A stretch of 58,007 bases of DNA, from the NCBI GenBank assembly GCA_026388655.1, contig JAPLJI010000170.1, positions 1 to 58,007 on the forward strand, read 5' to 3'. The notes beneath the pieces are model-generated. The model searched no databases. It had not been told where the DNA came from and worked only from the letters and a program-made list of their open reading frames with translations. Every line of letters begins with the position of its first letter. Position 1 is the first letter of the stretch. Of this stretch, positions 18,996 to 26,103 are shown in pieces. The DNA comes from Pseudomonadota bacterium. Its GTDB lineage: Bacteria > Desulfobacterota > JAPLJL01. Made by a program: the position numbers and the translations under genes.

Positions 18996-19067
18996 AAATA
19001 AGTCCCATTATTAATTTATTAATATTACTATGGATATCCTGGCTTCAATCCGGTCCGTAATTTCTGC

Positions 19068-19111
19068 TTGACCTTGTTTATGACTAACTATATCCTTTTA
19101 ACATATAAGCT
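19068..19111 (+). promoter_or_regulatory. possible promoter of the lipoprotein/TonB receptor operon
   Basis: AT-rich leader with TTGACC at 19068-19073 and TATATC at 19089-19094 (15-base spacer, shorter than ideal). A TATAAG further on is similar to the better promoter at 31883. No Zur- or Fur-like palindrome was obvious by eye. The assignment is weak. Confidence 0.3.
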
Positions 19112-19135: not shown

Positions 19136-20884
19136 ATGAAACTTCGTCTGCAAAAGATGGTTTGTTCGTTGCTTTTGGTTCTGCCCCTCTCTCTTCTGCT
19201 CACCTGCGCGCAGCAGACAGACCCGGCCAAGATGAAAATCCAGGAGCTCCTGGCCGAGGGAAAAACCTATCTCGGCAACTCTAATTTTGACGGCGCCGTC
19301 CAGTCCTTCCAGCTTATCCTGAACGAATACGACCCCGAGAACCTCGATGCGCTGTACGGAGTGGCCATTTCTTTAACCCTGAAACAGCTGGCCGGGATGA
19401 GCGATCAATTCCAGTCGATTTTTGACACGTTATTCAAGATGATCGGAGGCATCACTTCCGACCCGCCCCGGAAATTCACCCCCCAGGCGACCTCCGGGGT
19501 CAATGCCATCGTGGAAAGTGTGGTGGATGACGCTGTCCTGGACGCATTAGATGCCGTCTTTCCCTACTGGGACAAACTCAAACAACACCCTGAATTCAGC
19601 ATGACCCTCGACAGCGTTCCGCTCACGATCGGGGTTGAACCTTACCTGGTCTACAAAAGTGACATGGGGGGCGTAGCCGACCTGGGAACGGTTTACTTCG
19701 TCTCCGCGATTATGCGATTTTTCAAATCCTTAATTTACATTATGTATGCCGTTAATCTCGACCTGACCCCCTCCCTCCCCGGGCTGATTCAGCAGTTTCT
19801 TCCCATCCTTCAGGGCCAGCAAAGCCTCACGGTTGACCGGGATTTTATCCTTGGCCTCCTGGCTTATATAGTTGATTCCTCCCCGAAGTTTCTTACCCTC
19901 GAACCCTCCGAGGGCAAAAACAGGCTTTCCGAGGCCGCGGATCTTATGGCCGGGTCCATCCAGGACCTGCTCAGCTGTTTGGACTTCATTAGCGCGGAAA
20001 AGAGCAGTCAGTTAAACCATATAGTCGCTTATAAGTTCGAAAACAATAAGCAGTGTATGATTTTTAATATTAAGCAAGACGGCAAGCCCATGGTAATTGA
20101 ATTCGAATTTGCCGACCAGGTCCGGGCCAGCTTCCAGAACCTGATCTCGAGTTTCCAATCCTCCGGCGGAGTGCAGGCGAGCTGGTCCCAGGACATGGCC
20201 CCCTACCTGGGTCTCCTCCTGCAGGGTCTGCTCCAGGCCGGGTTGCTGGATCCCGTTCTCGCCTTCGCCCTGCCCATGCTCCAGCCGTATCTCGGCGCGG
20301 ATACGGTGGCGATGGTCAACCAGTTGATGGGAACCGTGAAGACAATGGCCCAAGGCGGTCTCCTGGCCGGGGGGATGACCACGATTATCCCGGACGTGAT
20401 CCAGTTCGACTTCGGCAAATTCATGCATGATCCCCCCGCGCGGTTTATCCGCCTCATCCTGCCCGCGGTGGTCAAGGTCAAGGATGACAATGGGAATATA
20501 ATTTATGATCAGAAAGGGGATCCCATACTTAAACTTTTACTTGAATATGAATGCACCGATCTGGCCGATAATTCCCTGTGGTGCCCTTACCCGGAAACCA
20601 TCACCTCGAGCGCCCATTTTATCGGAACCGACTACCAGATTGCTGATGACGGAATCAAGAATCCCCTGCCCTACATTTCTTCCCAGGATCCTTCCCTCGG
20701 TGGTCTGCTTTATCTGAACCTAAATTCCTTGGACCCGAGTTTAGACAACTCATTCCATCAGCCCACTTCCTATGAGTTCAATTACTTCCTGGGCAAGGTC
20801 ATCGGCGGCCTCCTGGGCGGGCTAGGCAATCTCACCTCCTCCCCCGGAACCCCAGCCATGATCCGGAGGCCCTCGGGCAGTTGA
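19136..20884 (+). CDS. lipoprotein with N-terminal TPR-like region, paralogue A
   Basis: 582 residues. The signal peptide ends LLLTCAQQ, with Cys 24 or so as the lipidation site. Residues 34-75 are TPR-like (LLAEGKTYLGNSNFDGAVQSFQ). The rest is a large helical/hydrophobic domain rich in Leu, Gln and Met (GLLLQGLLQAGLLDPVLAF) and ending in GGLLGGLGNLTSS. The C-terminal 180 residues align by eye with the next gene: FDFGKFMHDPPARF..., LEYEC, AHFIGTDY, SLGGLLYLNLNSLD and YEFNYFLGKVIGG. No family was recognised. It is an outer-membrane or periplasmic lipoprotein that starts an operon of four + strand genes. The RBS AAGGAG lies six bases upstream. Confidence 0.8.
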   Translation: MKLRLQKMVCSLLLVLPLSLLLTCAQQTDPAKMKIQELLAEGKTYLGNSNFDGAVQSFQLILNEYDPENLDALYGVAISLTLKQLAGMSDQFQSIFDTLFKMIGGITSDPPRKFTPQATSGVNAIVESVVDDAVLDALDAVFPYWDKLKQHPEFSMTLDSVPLTIGVEPYLVYKSDMGGVADLGTVYFVSAIMRFFKSLIYIMYAVNLDLTPSLPGLIQQFLPILQGQQSLTVDRDFILGLLAYIVDSSPKFLTLEPSEGKNRLSEAADLMAGSIQDLLSCLDFISAEKSSQLNHIVAYKFENNKQCMIFNIKQDGKPMVIEFEFADQVRASFQNLISSFQSSGGVQASWSQDMAPYLGLLLQGLLQAGLLDPVLAFALPMLQPYLGADTVAMVNQLMGTVKTMAQGGLLAGGMTTIIPDVIQFDFGKFMHDPPARFIRLILPAVVKVKDDNGNIIYDQKGDPILKLLLEYECTDLADNSLWCPYPETITSSAHFIGTDYQIADDGIKNPLPYISSQDPSLGGLLYLNLNSLDPSLDNSFHQPTSYEFNYFLGKVIGGLLGGLGNLTSSPGTPAMIRRPSGS

Positions 20885-20903
20885 CCCTAAGCAAGGAGAA
20901 AAC

Positions 20904-22796
20904 GTGAAATTTCACCGAAAAAACAGCTGGTTCATTACTCTCGGCATCGTCTTCTCCGCTTTCTCCCTGAGCCTGCTTTCCGCCTGCGACGGCAATAACA
21001 CCACTCCTGGCTCCCAGATCCACGAGCCCGGGCCCTGTGACCTCGAGCTTCAGGAAGGAAAAAATTTCCTGATGCAGGGAAATTATTTTCAGGCCCAGGA
21101 CCGCTTCTTCCAATGCGTGGAAAAATATCCGGACAACGTGACCGGTTTTTCCGCGGCCGCGGCCGACCAGCAAAAAATGACCTCGGAATATGGGTACATC
21201 CTCTCTCGAACCCTTTTAACCGTGGCGCAGGTTTCCATCACGATGGAGGAACTGGTCTCCTCCGCGGGCGGGCTTCTTTCCGGGGTTTTGACCCCCGCGC
21301 AGATTCCCGCTTCGAGCCTGAATATCATCGTGAGCAACCTGGTGTACGGAACCATCCTCAAGGAAGCCGATCACCTGAGACCTTACCTGGCCGATCTGAA
21401 AACATTATCGGTCGCGCCTTCCTTTATTATTAACGATCCGGAAACCGACGCGGTCGAGTCGATCCCGGTTTATCTGGGGAAAAATAACGAAGTCCTCTGG
21501 CTCTCCCTGACCGGGGAGCTGGACCGGGGGGAAATCGAGTTAATCGATTCCTTCCTGGCCGTGACCCAGGGCCTCTCGGAAACCGCGCTCAGCATCAACT
21601 TTGAGGTTGACCTCAACGCGGTGTTCGAGTCGATTGTGCAGGCCGTGGCGAGGATTATTTCCGGCACGCCGATCCCCATTGGCGGCAACCTATATCTGGG
21701 ATCGCCTTCTGTAGATTCGGACCTGGTCCTCGTTCCCCTGGTCACCTCCATCGCCGCTTTTGCCCTCAACAACTCCCCCGCTTTTATGACCCTTAACTAT
21801 TCCAGCCTGCTCCCGAAGGGCGGGGGCCCCCCCCTGCTCCTGGATGCCGCCGATAAAATCGGGGAAGGCTGCGGCAATTTCCTTTCGGCCTTCGACAAGA
21901 TCCGGGCCGAGGGCAACGATGCTTCCGATCCCTTCGCCATCGTCACCAAGGACGGCAAGGAAAACTTCCGGCTCACTTACCTGGATCCGACCGGCGCGCA
22001 GAAAGTAGTGGACATCCCCACCCAGCCCAAATTCTTTTCCGCCATCCAGAACGTCCAGAACAGCGTAACCGGCACCAGCACCTCCCCGGGAGCCAACCCG
22101 CGGGTTTCCTGGGCCGAGGATTTGTCCTGGTTGGTGAGCTATGGAGCCTCCATTTTCCTCCAGACCGGAGGGGTGAACGCCCTGTTAGACATAACCGTGG
22201 CCAAGATCAGTCCTTCCCTGTCCAGCCAGCTAAAAAATTATACGAAATCCCTGCCCCTGACCCCGAACCTGATTAACGGCTTGCTCCTGTCCATGGTTCA
22301 GGACGCCATCCAGCTGGATCTGGGTTACTATTATCACAATCCCAAAGACCGCTATCTCCGTGACGTCCTCCCCTACTGGACCGACTTTAAAGACGGCCAG
22401 GGAAACGGTTACCTTATCCTCGAGTATGAATGCCCCATTCCCGCCACATACACTGGCAACCCCAGTTATCCCCTGGGAACCACCGCCTATACCTGTCCGG
22501 CGGGAACGATCACCGATGCCGGCCACTTCGCCAACCTGGACATAAATTACAAACCGGACGAAAGCTCCAATCTGCCCGGGGCGATTCCACCGGACGAACT
22601 CCTGGCCGGTCTCCCCTACCTCGCCTGGCAGGACCCGACTTTTAATAACTCCCTTTTCCTCAACTTGAATAACATCGATTGCGGCACTTGCCCCGCCAGT
22701 TTCGCCGAACCCGGGCTCTGGGAATTCAATTACTTCACGATCAAAATCCTGGGGAACCTGCTCAACCTGATCCAATCCCTGGGGGGGTTGACTTAG
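20904..22796 (+). CDS. lipoprotein with N-terminal TPR-like region, paralogue B
   Basis: 630 residues starting at GTG, six bases after AAGGAG. The lipobox is LLSACDGN. A TPR-like unit follows (LQEGKNFLMQGNYFQAQDRFFQ). The body parallels paralogue A, with shared C-terminal landmarks: LDLGYYYHNPKDRYLRDVLP, LEYEC, AGHFANLDINYK, LPYLAWQDPTFNNSLFLNLN and WEFNYFTIKILGNLL. B has an extra Cys-rich insert (CPIPATYTGN to TAYTC, and CGTCP). The pair arose by tandem duplication and lies eight bases upstream of the TonB receptor gene, so the products probably act with it at the outer membrane. No known family was recognised. Confidence 0.8.
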   Translation: MKFHRKNSWFITLGIVFSAFSLSLLSACDGNNTTPGSQIHEPGPCDLELQEGKNFLMQGNYFQAQDRFFQCVEKYPDNVTGFSAAAADQQKMTSEYGYILSRTLLTVAQVSITMEELVSSAGGLLSGVLTPAQIPASSLNIIVSNLVYGTILKEADHLRPYLADLKTLSVAPSFIINDPETDAVESIPVYLGKNNEVLWLSLTGELDRGEIELIDSFLAVTQGLSETALSINFEVDLNAVFESIVQAVARIISGTPIPIGGNLYLGSPSVDSDLVLVPLVTSIAAFALNNSPAFMTLNYSSLLPKGGGPPLLLDAADKIGEGCGNFLSAFDKIRAEGNDASDPFAIVTKDGKENFRLTYLDPTGAQKVVDIPTQPKFFSAIQNVQNSVTGTSTSPGANPRVSWAEDLSWLVSYGASIFLQTGGVNALLDITVAKISPSLSSQLKNYTKSLPLTPNLINGLLLSMVQDAIQLDLGYYYHNPKDRYLRDVLPYWTDFKDGQGNGYLILEYECPIPATYTGNPSYPLGTTAYTCPAGTITDAGHFANLDINYKPDESSNLPGAIPPDELLAGLPYLAWQDPTFNNSLFLNLNNIDCGTCPASFAEPGLWEFNYFTIKILGNLLNLIQSLGGLT

Positions 22797-22803
22797 CCGG
22801 CTT

Positions 22804-25188
22804 ATGCTTCCCGATCGGAAACCATTCCGCCCGGTTCTGGTCATGATCCTGCTCGCCTTCTCCGGCGCTCTCTCCCGGCTTTCCGCCGCCGAGCTGATCG
22901 ACCTGGAAATCCACCACATCCCTCCCGACGCGATCCAGGCCGACCAGTCGCTGACCATCAGCGCCGATATCATGGATTCCCAGCAGGTCGCCATGGCCAT
23001 CATCAACTGGAGGGTCATCGGGGAACCGGGTTTCCGCCGGAACAAGATGATCCTCTCCGATCCCTCCCGCCACCGCTTTACCGCCACGATTCCCGCGGCC
23101 TGGCTGGCCCGCCCCGGGATCGAATACTTTATTTCCGCCGTGGATATCAACCAGGAATTCCATCCCCTGTTCAAGGATGAAAAATTCCCCCAGCAGGTCT
23201 GGTTCGAGGGGGAAAAACCCCGGGCCCCCGAGGCCACCCAGGCCGTCCGGGAGGAATTCGCCCTCTTCGCCGCCGAGGAGGTCATTACCACCGCCGCCAA
23301 GCACGAGCAGAAACTGATCGAGGCCCCCTCCGCGGTCAGCGTGATCTCCCGCGAGGAAATCCAGGCCATGGGCCTGACTTCGCTCGCGGACATCCTCCGG
23401 ATCGTCCCCGGGATCGAGGTTTACGAGATCAGCCCCGGCTACCCGGTGGTGGGGTTCCGCGGTCAGACCAATGAAACCAACGACCTGGTCGTGGTCCTCC
23501 TGGACGGGAGGGAAGTGAACAACCCGGCTTTGGGCACCACCTTTTATTCCGCCCTGCCCGTTTCCCCGCTGGAAATTGAAAGAATTGAAATCATCCGCGG
23601 TCCGGGCAGCTCCCTTTACGGCGCCAACGCCTTTTCCGGGGTCATCAACATCATCACCCAGTCCGAGAAAGCCGCCGACCGGATCGTCTCCGGCTATGGG
23701 GGCGGGGGCAACGGCGGCCATCCAATTCTCGGAACCTTCCTCCGGGCGGGGGGATTCCTCCAGGCCAAGAATCATTATTACGTTAGCGGCGGCTACCAGC
23801 AGGAGGCTTTCTGGTCCACCCGCCTGGGAAACGCCCAGGCTGTGGGATACGGCCGGGCCCAGTTCCAGCGCCGGTTCGACCAGGAAGGCAAGATCGCCCT
23901 GAGCCTCGAGGGAGGGGTTGATTCCGGAAACTGGGATTACTTCTTTCCCCTCTCCGCCGTCGGGATGTCCGGGCAGGAGTACTTCGCCCGCCTCGGTTTC
24001 CGGGGTTACGGCCTATCCACCCAGCTTTACTGGAACCGGCTCAACGGGAACATGAAATTCATCGACCCGGATCTAGAAACCCTAACCCGGCATATCCAGG
24101 TGCCCCTCAACACGGATGTTCTCGACCTATCTCTCCAGTATGATTACGATTTCGGCCGCTGGAGCCGCCTGATCACGGGGGGAAACTTCCGGATCAACCA
24201 GTTCCAATCCTACGAATTTGAACCGAACAAAAAACAGGAGAACGACTACGGGGGATTCATCCAGGATGAAATCCGCCCCCTGAATCCGCTCATCCTCACC
24301 CTCGGGGTCCGCTACGACGGAAGCGACACGATCAAGGAAAGAACCCCGAGCCCGCGGGCCAGCGCCACCTACATCCTGAAACAGGACCAGGCCCTCCGGG
24401 CCTCCTTCGGCCAGGCCTTCCGCAAGCCTTCTTTCCTCCAGTACGGGATGCGCATCAGGGGCCTGCAGGATGCGGTTCCTCCGGTTCCCATCTCCGAGCC
24501 GGTGGTGGAGAGTTACACCCAGAAGGTCCAGGCCTACGAGCTGGGCTACAGCGGGAAATTCATGAACCGGTTTAAAACCGGCCTGGATCTATATTACAAT
24601 CTCTACCGCGACCTGATCGCATTCGATCTGAGCCATAACGAATTTTCCAACTGGAAGCAGAACAGCAAGACCTACGCCGTCGGCGGGGAACTGTCCCTCG
24701 AGGTCGGGATCAATAAATATTTAAGCTCGATCGCCAACTATTCCTTCAACCAGATCTACTCGGATTACTCCAACCCCGAACTGGGAATCGCGAAGGGCAC
24801 CCAGTTGAAAGAGGCCCCTGTCCACAAGGCCAACCTCGCGCTCAATCTCAAGTGGCATTCCCTCTCTTCCCGCCTCTCCTTCCATTATTACGGTGAACGC
24901 ACCATCTCGGATTTCCGCACCCTCGACATCCCCTCCACGATGGTGGACATCCAGAACCCGGTCAAGGTTTCAGCCTTCTACCTGGTGAACCTGCGGATCG
25001 CCTATTCGCTCTGGCGGGACCGGCTGGAGCTGGGCTTGACCATGCAGGATCTCAAGGATCTTTTCACCGGCAAATCCCAATACCAGTACCAGAGCATCTA
25101 CTATTGGACCGCCAGCTCGGCCACCCATGACTTCGGGGGGGAAATGATCCGGGGCCTGGTCTACGGCACCCTGGAGCTCAAATTCTGA
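22804..25188 (+). CDS. TonB-dependent outer membrane receptor
   Basis: 794 residues with a signal peptide (to about residue 29, ending RLSAA). A beta-rich, Ig-like N-terminal domain follows (about 30-145). The plug domain (about 155-275) contains SAVSVISREEIQAMG, LADILRIVPGIEV, LLDGREVN and IEIIRGPGSSLYGANAFSGVINII. A 22-strand-type barrel ends in Phe (LELKF), the outer-membrane insertion signal. The plug motifs are those of siderophore/cobalamin/metal receptors, but ligand cannot be called from sequence. The extra domain before the plug is not the usual STN signalling domain. Translation follows paralogue B by seven bases. folE2 lies 54 bases downstream. Confidence 0.95.
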   Translation: MLPDRKPFRPVLVMILLAFSGALSRLSAAELIDLEIHHIPPDAIQADQSLTISADIMDSQQVAMAIINWRVIGEPGFRRNKMILSDPSRHRFTATIPAAWLARPGIEYFISAVDINQEFHPLFKDEKFPQQVWFEGEKPRAPEATQAVREEFALFAAEEVITTAAKHEQKLIEAPSAVSVISREEIQAMGLTSLADILRIVPGIEVYEISPGYPVVGFRGQTNETNDLVVVLLDGREVNNPALGTTFYSALPVSPLEIERIEIIRGPGSSLYGANAFSGVINIITQSEKAADRIVSGYGGGGNGGHPILGTFLRAGGFLQAKNHYYVSGGYQQEAFWSTRLGNAQAVGYGRAQFQRRFDQEGKIALSLEGGVDSGNWDYFFPLSAVGMSGQEYFARLGFRGYGLSTQLYWNRLNGNMKFIDPDLETLTRHIQVPLNTDVLDLSLQYDYDFGRWSRLITGGNFRINQFQSYEFEPNKKQENDYGGFIQDEIRPLNPLILTLGVRYDGSDTIKERTPSPRASATYILKQDQALRASFGQAFRKPSFLQYGMRIRGLQDAVPPVPISEPVVESYTQKVQAYELGYSGKFMNRFKTGLDLYYNLYRDLIAFDLSHNEFSNWKQNSKTYAVGGELSLEVGINKYLSSIANYSFNQIYSDYSNPELGIAKGTQLKEAPVHKANLALNLKWHSLSSRLSFHYYGERTISDFRTLDIPSTMVDIQNPVKVSAFYLVNLRIAYSLWRDRLELGLTMQDLKDLFTGKSQYQYQSIYYWTASSATHDFGGEMIRGLVYGTLELKF

Positions 25189-25242
25189 AATCTCCGCACC
25201 TTAAACGTTTCGCCCCTTAAGCCCAACTTACAACCCACCTCA

Positions 25243-26103
25243 ATGAAACCGGGGGCCCGAATCACAGCAAACCCGAAACTGTCGGACGTGCAAAGCCGCC
25301 GGGATTACCGCCGGATCGGAATCACCAAGGTGGGGGTCAAAGGCCTCCGCTATCCCATCCTGGTCCTCGACCGCCAGAACGGGACCCAGCACACCATCGC
25401 CGCCTTCAACATGTACGTGAACCTTTCCCACCGGGAGCGGGGCACGCACATGAGCCGTTTCATCGAGGTTCTGAACCGCCACCGGGGCGAGGTCAACCTG
25501 AAAAGCATCCCCGTCATCCTCGACGACCTGGTGAAAAAGCTTAAGGCTGATTCGGCCCACCTGGAAGTGGAGTTTCCCTATTTCCTGGAGAAATCCGCTC
25601 CGGTTACCGGGGCCAAGTCCATGGTTTTCTACACCTGCCGGTTCCTGGCCTCCACCGTCACCCCCCCGGCCTCACCCCGGCGCGCCCGGGGTCGTTCCCG
25701 CCCCGATCCCCGGAAGGATTTCCGGGTCGAGGTCGAGGTGCCGGTGATTTCCCTCTGCCCCTGCTCCAAGGAAATCTCCCGGATCGGCGCCCACAACCAG
25801 CGCTCCCTGGTGGCGGTCCGGGTCCGCTACTCCGGTTTCTTCTGGATCGAGGACCTGATCAGCCTGGTGGAGGAGTCTTCCTCCGCCCCGATCTATTCCC
25901 TGCTCAAGCGCCCGGATGAAAAATTCATCACCGAGCGGGCCTTCTCCCGCCCCCGCTTCGCTGAGGACATCGCCCGCGAGGTGGCCTCCCGTCTGCGCCG
26001 GGATAAAAACTTCACCTGGTTCAAGGTGGAGGTGGAAAGCTTCGAATCCATTCACAGTCATAATGCCTATGCTTACGTAGAAGAAGGCAAAGCCATTGAA
26101 TAG
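25243..26103 (+). CDS. folE2: GTP cyclohydrolase IB (FolE2)
   Basis: 286 residues. It converts GTP to 7,8-dihydroneopterin triphosphate, the first step of folate/queuosine pterin synthesis, using the alternative type IB enzyme. Landmarks are DVQSRRDYRRIGITKVGVKG, LDRQNGTQHTIAAF, the metal Cys region VISLCPCSKEISRIGAHNQR, and SIHSHNAYAYVE near the end. A short Arg/Pro insert (about residues 145-160) is unusual. Type IB enzymes work with metals other than zinc and in several bacteria are induced by zinc limitation. Its place after a TonB receptor fits that theme but does not prove it. Confidence 0.94.
   Translation: MKPGARITANPKLSDVQSRRDYRRIGITKVGVKGLRYPILVLDRQNGTQHTIAAFNMYVNLSHRERGTHMSRFIEVLNRHRGEVNLKSIPVILDDLVKKLKADSAHLEVEFPYFLEKSAPVTGAKSMVFYTCRFLASTVTPPASPRRARGRSRPDPRKDFRVEVEVPVISLCPCSKEISRIGAHNQRSLVAVRVRYSGFFWIEDLISLVEESSSAPIYSLLKRPDEKFITERAFSRPRFAEDIAREVASRLRRDKNFTWFKVEVESFESIHSHNAYAYVEEGKAIE

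Follow-up and report, generated by a model that had tools for sequence, protein, structure and literature searches.

In several described systems a TonB-dependent receptor (TBDR) is found together with a lipoprotein. SusC/SusD (RagA/RagB) places the TBDR beside a large TPR-bearing lipoprotein, and SusC has an Ig-like extension before its TonB box (PMC7782687). TbpA/TbpB and HpuB/HpuA likewise combine a lipoprotein with a TBDR, the lipoprotein diverging faster than its receptor; TbpB evolves faster than TbpA (PMC7857515). BtuB/BtuG is an example of other lipoprotein families partnered with TBDRs (PMC10404256), and BamD/YfiO is a lipoprotein with an N-terminal TPR.

The window, a stretch of 58,007 nucleotides from a Desulfobacterota genome, contains a locus in which two lipoprotein genes (here lpA and lpB) precede a TBDR gene. 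Its features are as follows.

19047..19096, + strand: conserved block, aligned in three species, with a putative -35/-10 promoter (TTGACC-17-TATCCT)
19136..20884, + strand: lpA, lipoprotein of 582 aa; lipobox LLTC (Cys24); one weak N-terminal TPR, then the family body
20904..22796, + strand: lpB, paralogous lipoprotein of 630 aa; GTG start; lipobox LSAC (Cys28)
22804..25188, + strand: TonB-dependent receptor of 794 aa, with Pfam Plug and TonB_dep_Rec_b-barrel
22891..23208, + strand: N-terminal extension of the receptor (residues 30-135, ~105 residues), weakly predicted as an FN3/Ig-like beta sandwich
23275..23298, + strand: TonB-box-like segment EEVITTAA (residues 158-165) between extension and plug, assigned by its position
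25243..26103, + strand: FolE2 (GTP cyclohydrolase IB), probably not a functional part of the unit

A paralogous lipoprotein pair upstream of a TonB-dependent receptor

The four open reading frames were confirmed at these coordinates, separated by intergenic gaps of 19 nt (lpA-lpB), 7 nt (lpB-receptor) and 54 nt (receptor-folE2), as expected from an earlier note that described two lipoproteins nearly contiguous with a TBDR and followed by folE2. The order lpA-lpB-receptor-folE2-ligA is common to all three genomes of the genus, that of the two sister genomes (G001 and G002) having been assembled from contig ends; this is a test within one genus, where most synteny may persist anyway. The survey of gene neighbourhoods proposed in the note thus gave conservation in three of three genus genomes but none outside the genus among the 395 genomes of the phylum sampled, and a search of a plasmid collection returned no match. 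Between species, the lipoproteins of the locus are 66-71% identical, the receptor 86-90% and FolE2 91-92%.

A 30-bp block upstream of lpA is identical in the three genomes and present as a single copy in each, while the promoter pattern by itself is no more frequent than expected by chance. As the block with its putative promoter occurs once per genome, no regulon is indicated. No riboswitch or RNA leader was found in Rfam for the region upstream of lpA.

The two lipoproteins are true paralogues along their entire length. They share 25% identity over the full length (blastp, E=2e-34), and the mature proteins score 388 by Smith-Waterman, where shuffled sequences average 43 (sd 5.7). Divided by region, the comparison with shuffled sequences gave 220 versus 35 for the C-terminal part and 174 versus 38 for the N-terminal remainder, so that the shared C-terminal landmarks noted earlier (DVIQFDFG and DPS.GG in lpA) are present but the similarity is not C-terminal alone. 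Both proteins have the N-terminal signal and lipobox Cys of bacterial lipoproteins, in keeping with the duplicated lipoprotein pair first proposed. The label "TPR-like" applies in part: lpA has one weak N-terminal repeat (TPR_16, E=0.21, sub-threshold), but none was detected in lpB by Pfam search, nor any further repeat in the body. This body of ~500 residues has no usable match in Pfam or NCBIfam and its PDB profile matches are at chance level, which agrees with the remark that the pair belongs to no known family. An AF2 model of lpA from a six-sequence alignment had a pLDDT of 36.

The receptor, its extension and FolE2

The receptor is a genuine TBDR, with both plug (PF07715, 9e-22) and beta-barrel (PF00593, 1e-29) domains above gathering thresholds. 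Many models of vitamin B12 and siderophore receptors match this plug and barrel, as would be expected if it were a receptor of such a known type to which the lipoproteins are incidental. That explanation is improbable, however: all scores against NCBIfam equivalogs are far below cut-off, and the best model, TOL_0244 (186 versus 645 bits), says nothing about the ligand, since it fits other receptors in the phylum no worse. A ligand derived from TOL_0244 (alkane-related, PMC6304351) was rejected on the same ground. In addition, a separate TBDR on contig C9 (L037, G000:C9:18000-32000) is surrounded by what look like genes for cobalamin synthesis and uptake, so a receptor dedicated to B12 probably exists elsewhere in the genome. 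Beyond the genus, comparable receptors share 31-35% identity, have no match to the extension, and adjoin ABC_sub_bind proteins and a histidine kinase; given that identity and the missing extension, these neighbours are uninformative about the ligand. In other families of the phylum, TBDRs, some in tandem, adjoin signalling and ABC_sub_bind (PF04392) genes at L109-L112 (G032, G005, G068).

The N-terminal extension has no Pfam match. A search of 395 genomes, run with one query sequence and hence of limited sensitivity, recovered it from the three members of the genus alone, and every copy found is part of the receptor encoded at this locus. A single-sequence AF2 model (pLDDT about 57) consists of beta strands, and Foldseek ranks fibronectin-III and Ig-like domains highest, at E values of about 2e-3 or weaker; this no more than suggests an FN3/Ig-like fold.

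FolE2 scores above the NCBIfam equivalog cut-off (264 versus 215 bits) and no other GTP cyclohydrolase I was detected in the window's genome. Where FolE1 is present as well, FolE2 is Zur-regulated in some bacteria (PMC2770081), and folE2 comes after the receptor in all three species; both points would suit a Zur-regulated four-gene unit that takes up zinc or a chelated metal and in which FolE2 serves as the zinc-independent back-up. No FolE1 (PF01227) was found, however, in the three genus genomes (82-94% complete), in a search whose control was positive in 11 of 14 genomes and in G003. FolE2 thus appears to carry out the housekeeping reaction by itself, not to spare zinc as a back-up to FolE1, contrary to the link with zinc limitation drawn in the note. 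The motif search that the note had called for found no Zur-like site in the window, and a FUR-family regulator was detected neither in the window's genome (94% complete) nor in G001, although G002 has one (C2:67878-68246); the combination of Zur box and genomic Zur regulator that marks a Zur regulon was therefore not found here. The gap preceding folE2 is also the widest of the three. The zinc reading is accordingly very improbable and was rejected, and FolE2 is a downstream housekeeping gene that gives no clue to the ligand.

An expanded lipoprotein family within the genus

The family comprises lpA, lpB and at least three further copies in the genome, on contigs C56, C176 and C9, with corresponding copies in the sister genomes. 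In an alignment of 15 members, 17 columns are invariant, including the lipobox Cys (Cys28 of lpB; 15 of 15) and landmark residues near the C-terminus, in the "D.IQ.D" and "DP.F.G" regions. Library searches detected a TPR-like repeat in four of the 15, with significance up to 1.5e-6. lpA and lpB each form a clade of their own, on branches of ~1.0 and 1.3 changes per site, and the two clades group together with moderate support only and a long-branch warning. Separate clades with long branches indicate that the duplication predates the split of the three species; judged from this tree, it is old, not recent.

The other members occupy varied settings: that on C56 adjoins an M28 peptidase, that on C176 is flanked by a cell-wall amidase (AMIN/Amidase_3) and a BFN-PDZ protein, and that on C9 adjoins an FN3-RCC1 lipoprotein. 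No receptor was found near these loci, of which there are at least three per genome. Their products show 63-71% interspecies identity, the range seen for the family as a whole, against about 80-94% for most neighbours; since members without a receptor diverge equally fast, rapid change is a trait of the family and not a sign of partnership.

In two genomes the M28 peptidase and the family lipoprotein share one open frame (L018:2702-5455 in G000:C56 and L023:8172-11006 in G002:C28). The peptidase ends in a GGC...hydrophobic...basic tail that is MYXO-CTERM-like by eye, and a second lipoprotein signal precedes the lipoprotein; the absence of a stop between the two in either species could mean that they are fused or could be due to chance.

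Outside the genus, when the 395 genomes of the phylum were searched with the TPR part removed, weak partial matches only were obtained, in G185, G246 and G044; matches of the A1 profile outside the genus were mostly to the TPR segment alone. When the family was compared by hhalign with the pair from G246 and G044, the probability was 92% across 106 columns, and G246 also has the C-terminal pieces "LDLSKFF..LRDFLP" and "FPDPTFNG". These proteins are probably distant relatives of the family, and no receptor-like gene was recognised beside them in the three genomes. The relatives in G246 and G044, genomes from two different families, are directly followed by small signal-anchored proteins (L089:5101-5796 and L090:3576-4280), which have no Pfam match and are LptC-like by eye only.

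These settings, the similar divergence at every family locus and the surroundings of the distant relatives would all fit a general role for lpA and lpB as structural, assembly or cell-wall lipoproteins of the envelope that merely adjoin the receptor gene, and are perhaps co-transcribed with it, with no partnership between the products. This is a serious alternative that falls not far short of an even chance, but against it stand the very tight spacing to the receptor, the order retained in three species, and the additional N-terminal domain of the one receptor that adjoins the pair.

Comparison with known receptor-lipoprotein systems

Since the genes are so closely and consistently arranged and the receptor has an unusual extension, the reading that lpA and lpB are envelope lipoproteins accessory to the adjacent TBDR is slightly preferred, although still tentatively. 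The short gaps and the shared gene order suggest a single transcription unit of lpA, lpB and the receptor. The two lipoproteins, presumably located in the outer membrane and belonging to an undescribed family expanded in the genus, would serve the receptor as accessory components for the capture or gating of a ligand; the receptor's FN3/Ig-like extension would precede the TonB box as in SusC. Counted in favour are the 19 and 7 nt spacings on one strand, the gene order retained in the three genomes, the identical single-copy promoter block upstream of lpA, the restriction of the extension to this receptor within the 395-genome sample, the match of both the TBDR-lipoprotein layout and the Ig-like extension to SusC/SusD (PMC7782687), and the faster divergence of the lipoproteins than of the receptor, as for TbpB relative to TbpA (PMC7857515). 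Counted against it are the family loci without a receptor and the outcome of the Pfam and PDB searches, in which neither SusD nor TbpB nor HpuA was matched. Of the accessory uptake complex first suggested for the pair, the role at the receptor is thus plausible, but a metal-chelate ligand is unsupported, with no Zur site and FolE1 not found.

Among known systems, BamD/YfiO is matched weakly (E=0.02), at 14 bits versus a cut-off of 81 and over about the first 65-80 residues. BtuB/BtuG differs in that there is no sequence match and no cobalamin link at the lpA-lpB-receptor locus. TbpA/TbpB and HpuB/HpuA also differ, as neither TbpB nor HpuA is matched by the lipoproteins in Pfam or PDB and there is no host-protein context here. 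With SusC/SusD, the shared features are the TBDR beside a large lipoprotein bearing TPR and the similar placement of the predicted FN3/Ig-like extension. In contrast to that system, there are two lipoproteins per receptor, encoded upstream, with one weak TPR rather than four, and other members of the family are encoded where no receptor is near. No SusD profile was found among the Pfam matches of the 15 family members or in the PDB profile search, the receptor scores 32 bits versus a cut-off of 368 for SusC/RagA (TIGR04056), and the extension does not match the SusC N-terminal extension (PF13715). The likeness to SusC/SusD is thus one of layout and not of sequence; the lipoproteins, which match no SusD profile just as the receptor falls short of the SusC one, may be functional analogues of SusD, TbpB or HpuA. 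A lipoprotein family without relation to SusD might, along with an FN3/Ig-like receptor extension, have independently evolved a SusCD-like capture or lid system in another lineage, with two paralogues per receptor, but this is unlikely. At minimum, the locus reveals an expanded, fast-evolving lipoprotein family that is absent from current profile libraries; if the partnership is real, it would be a TonB receptor with an accessory pair of lipoproteins of an undescribed family, in a layout convergent on that of SusCD.
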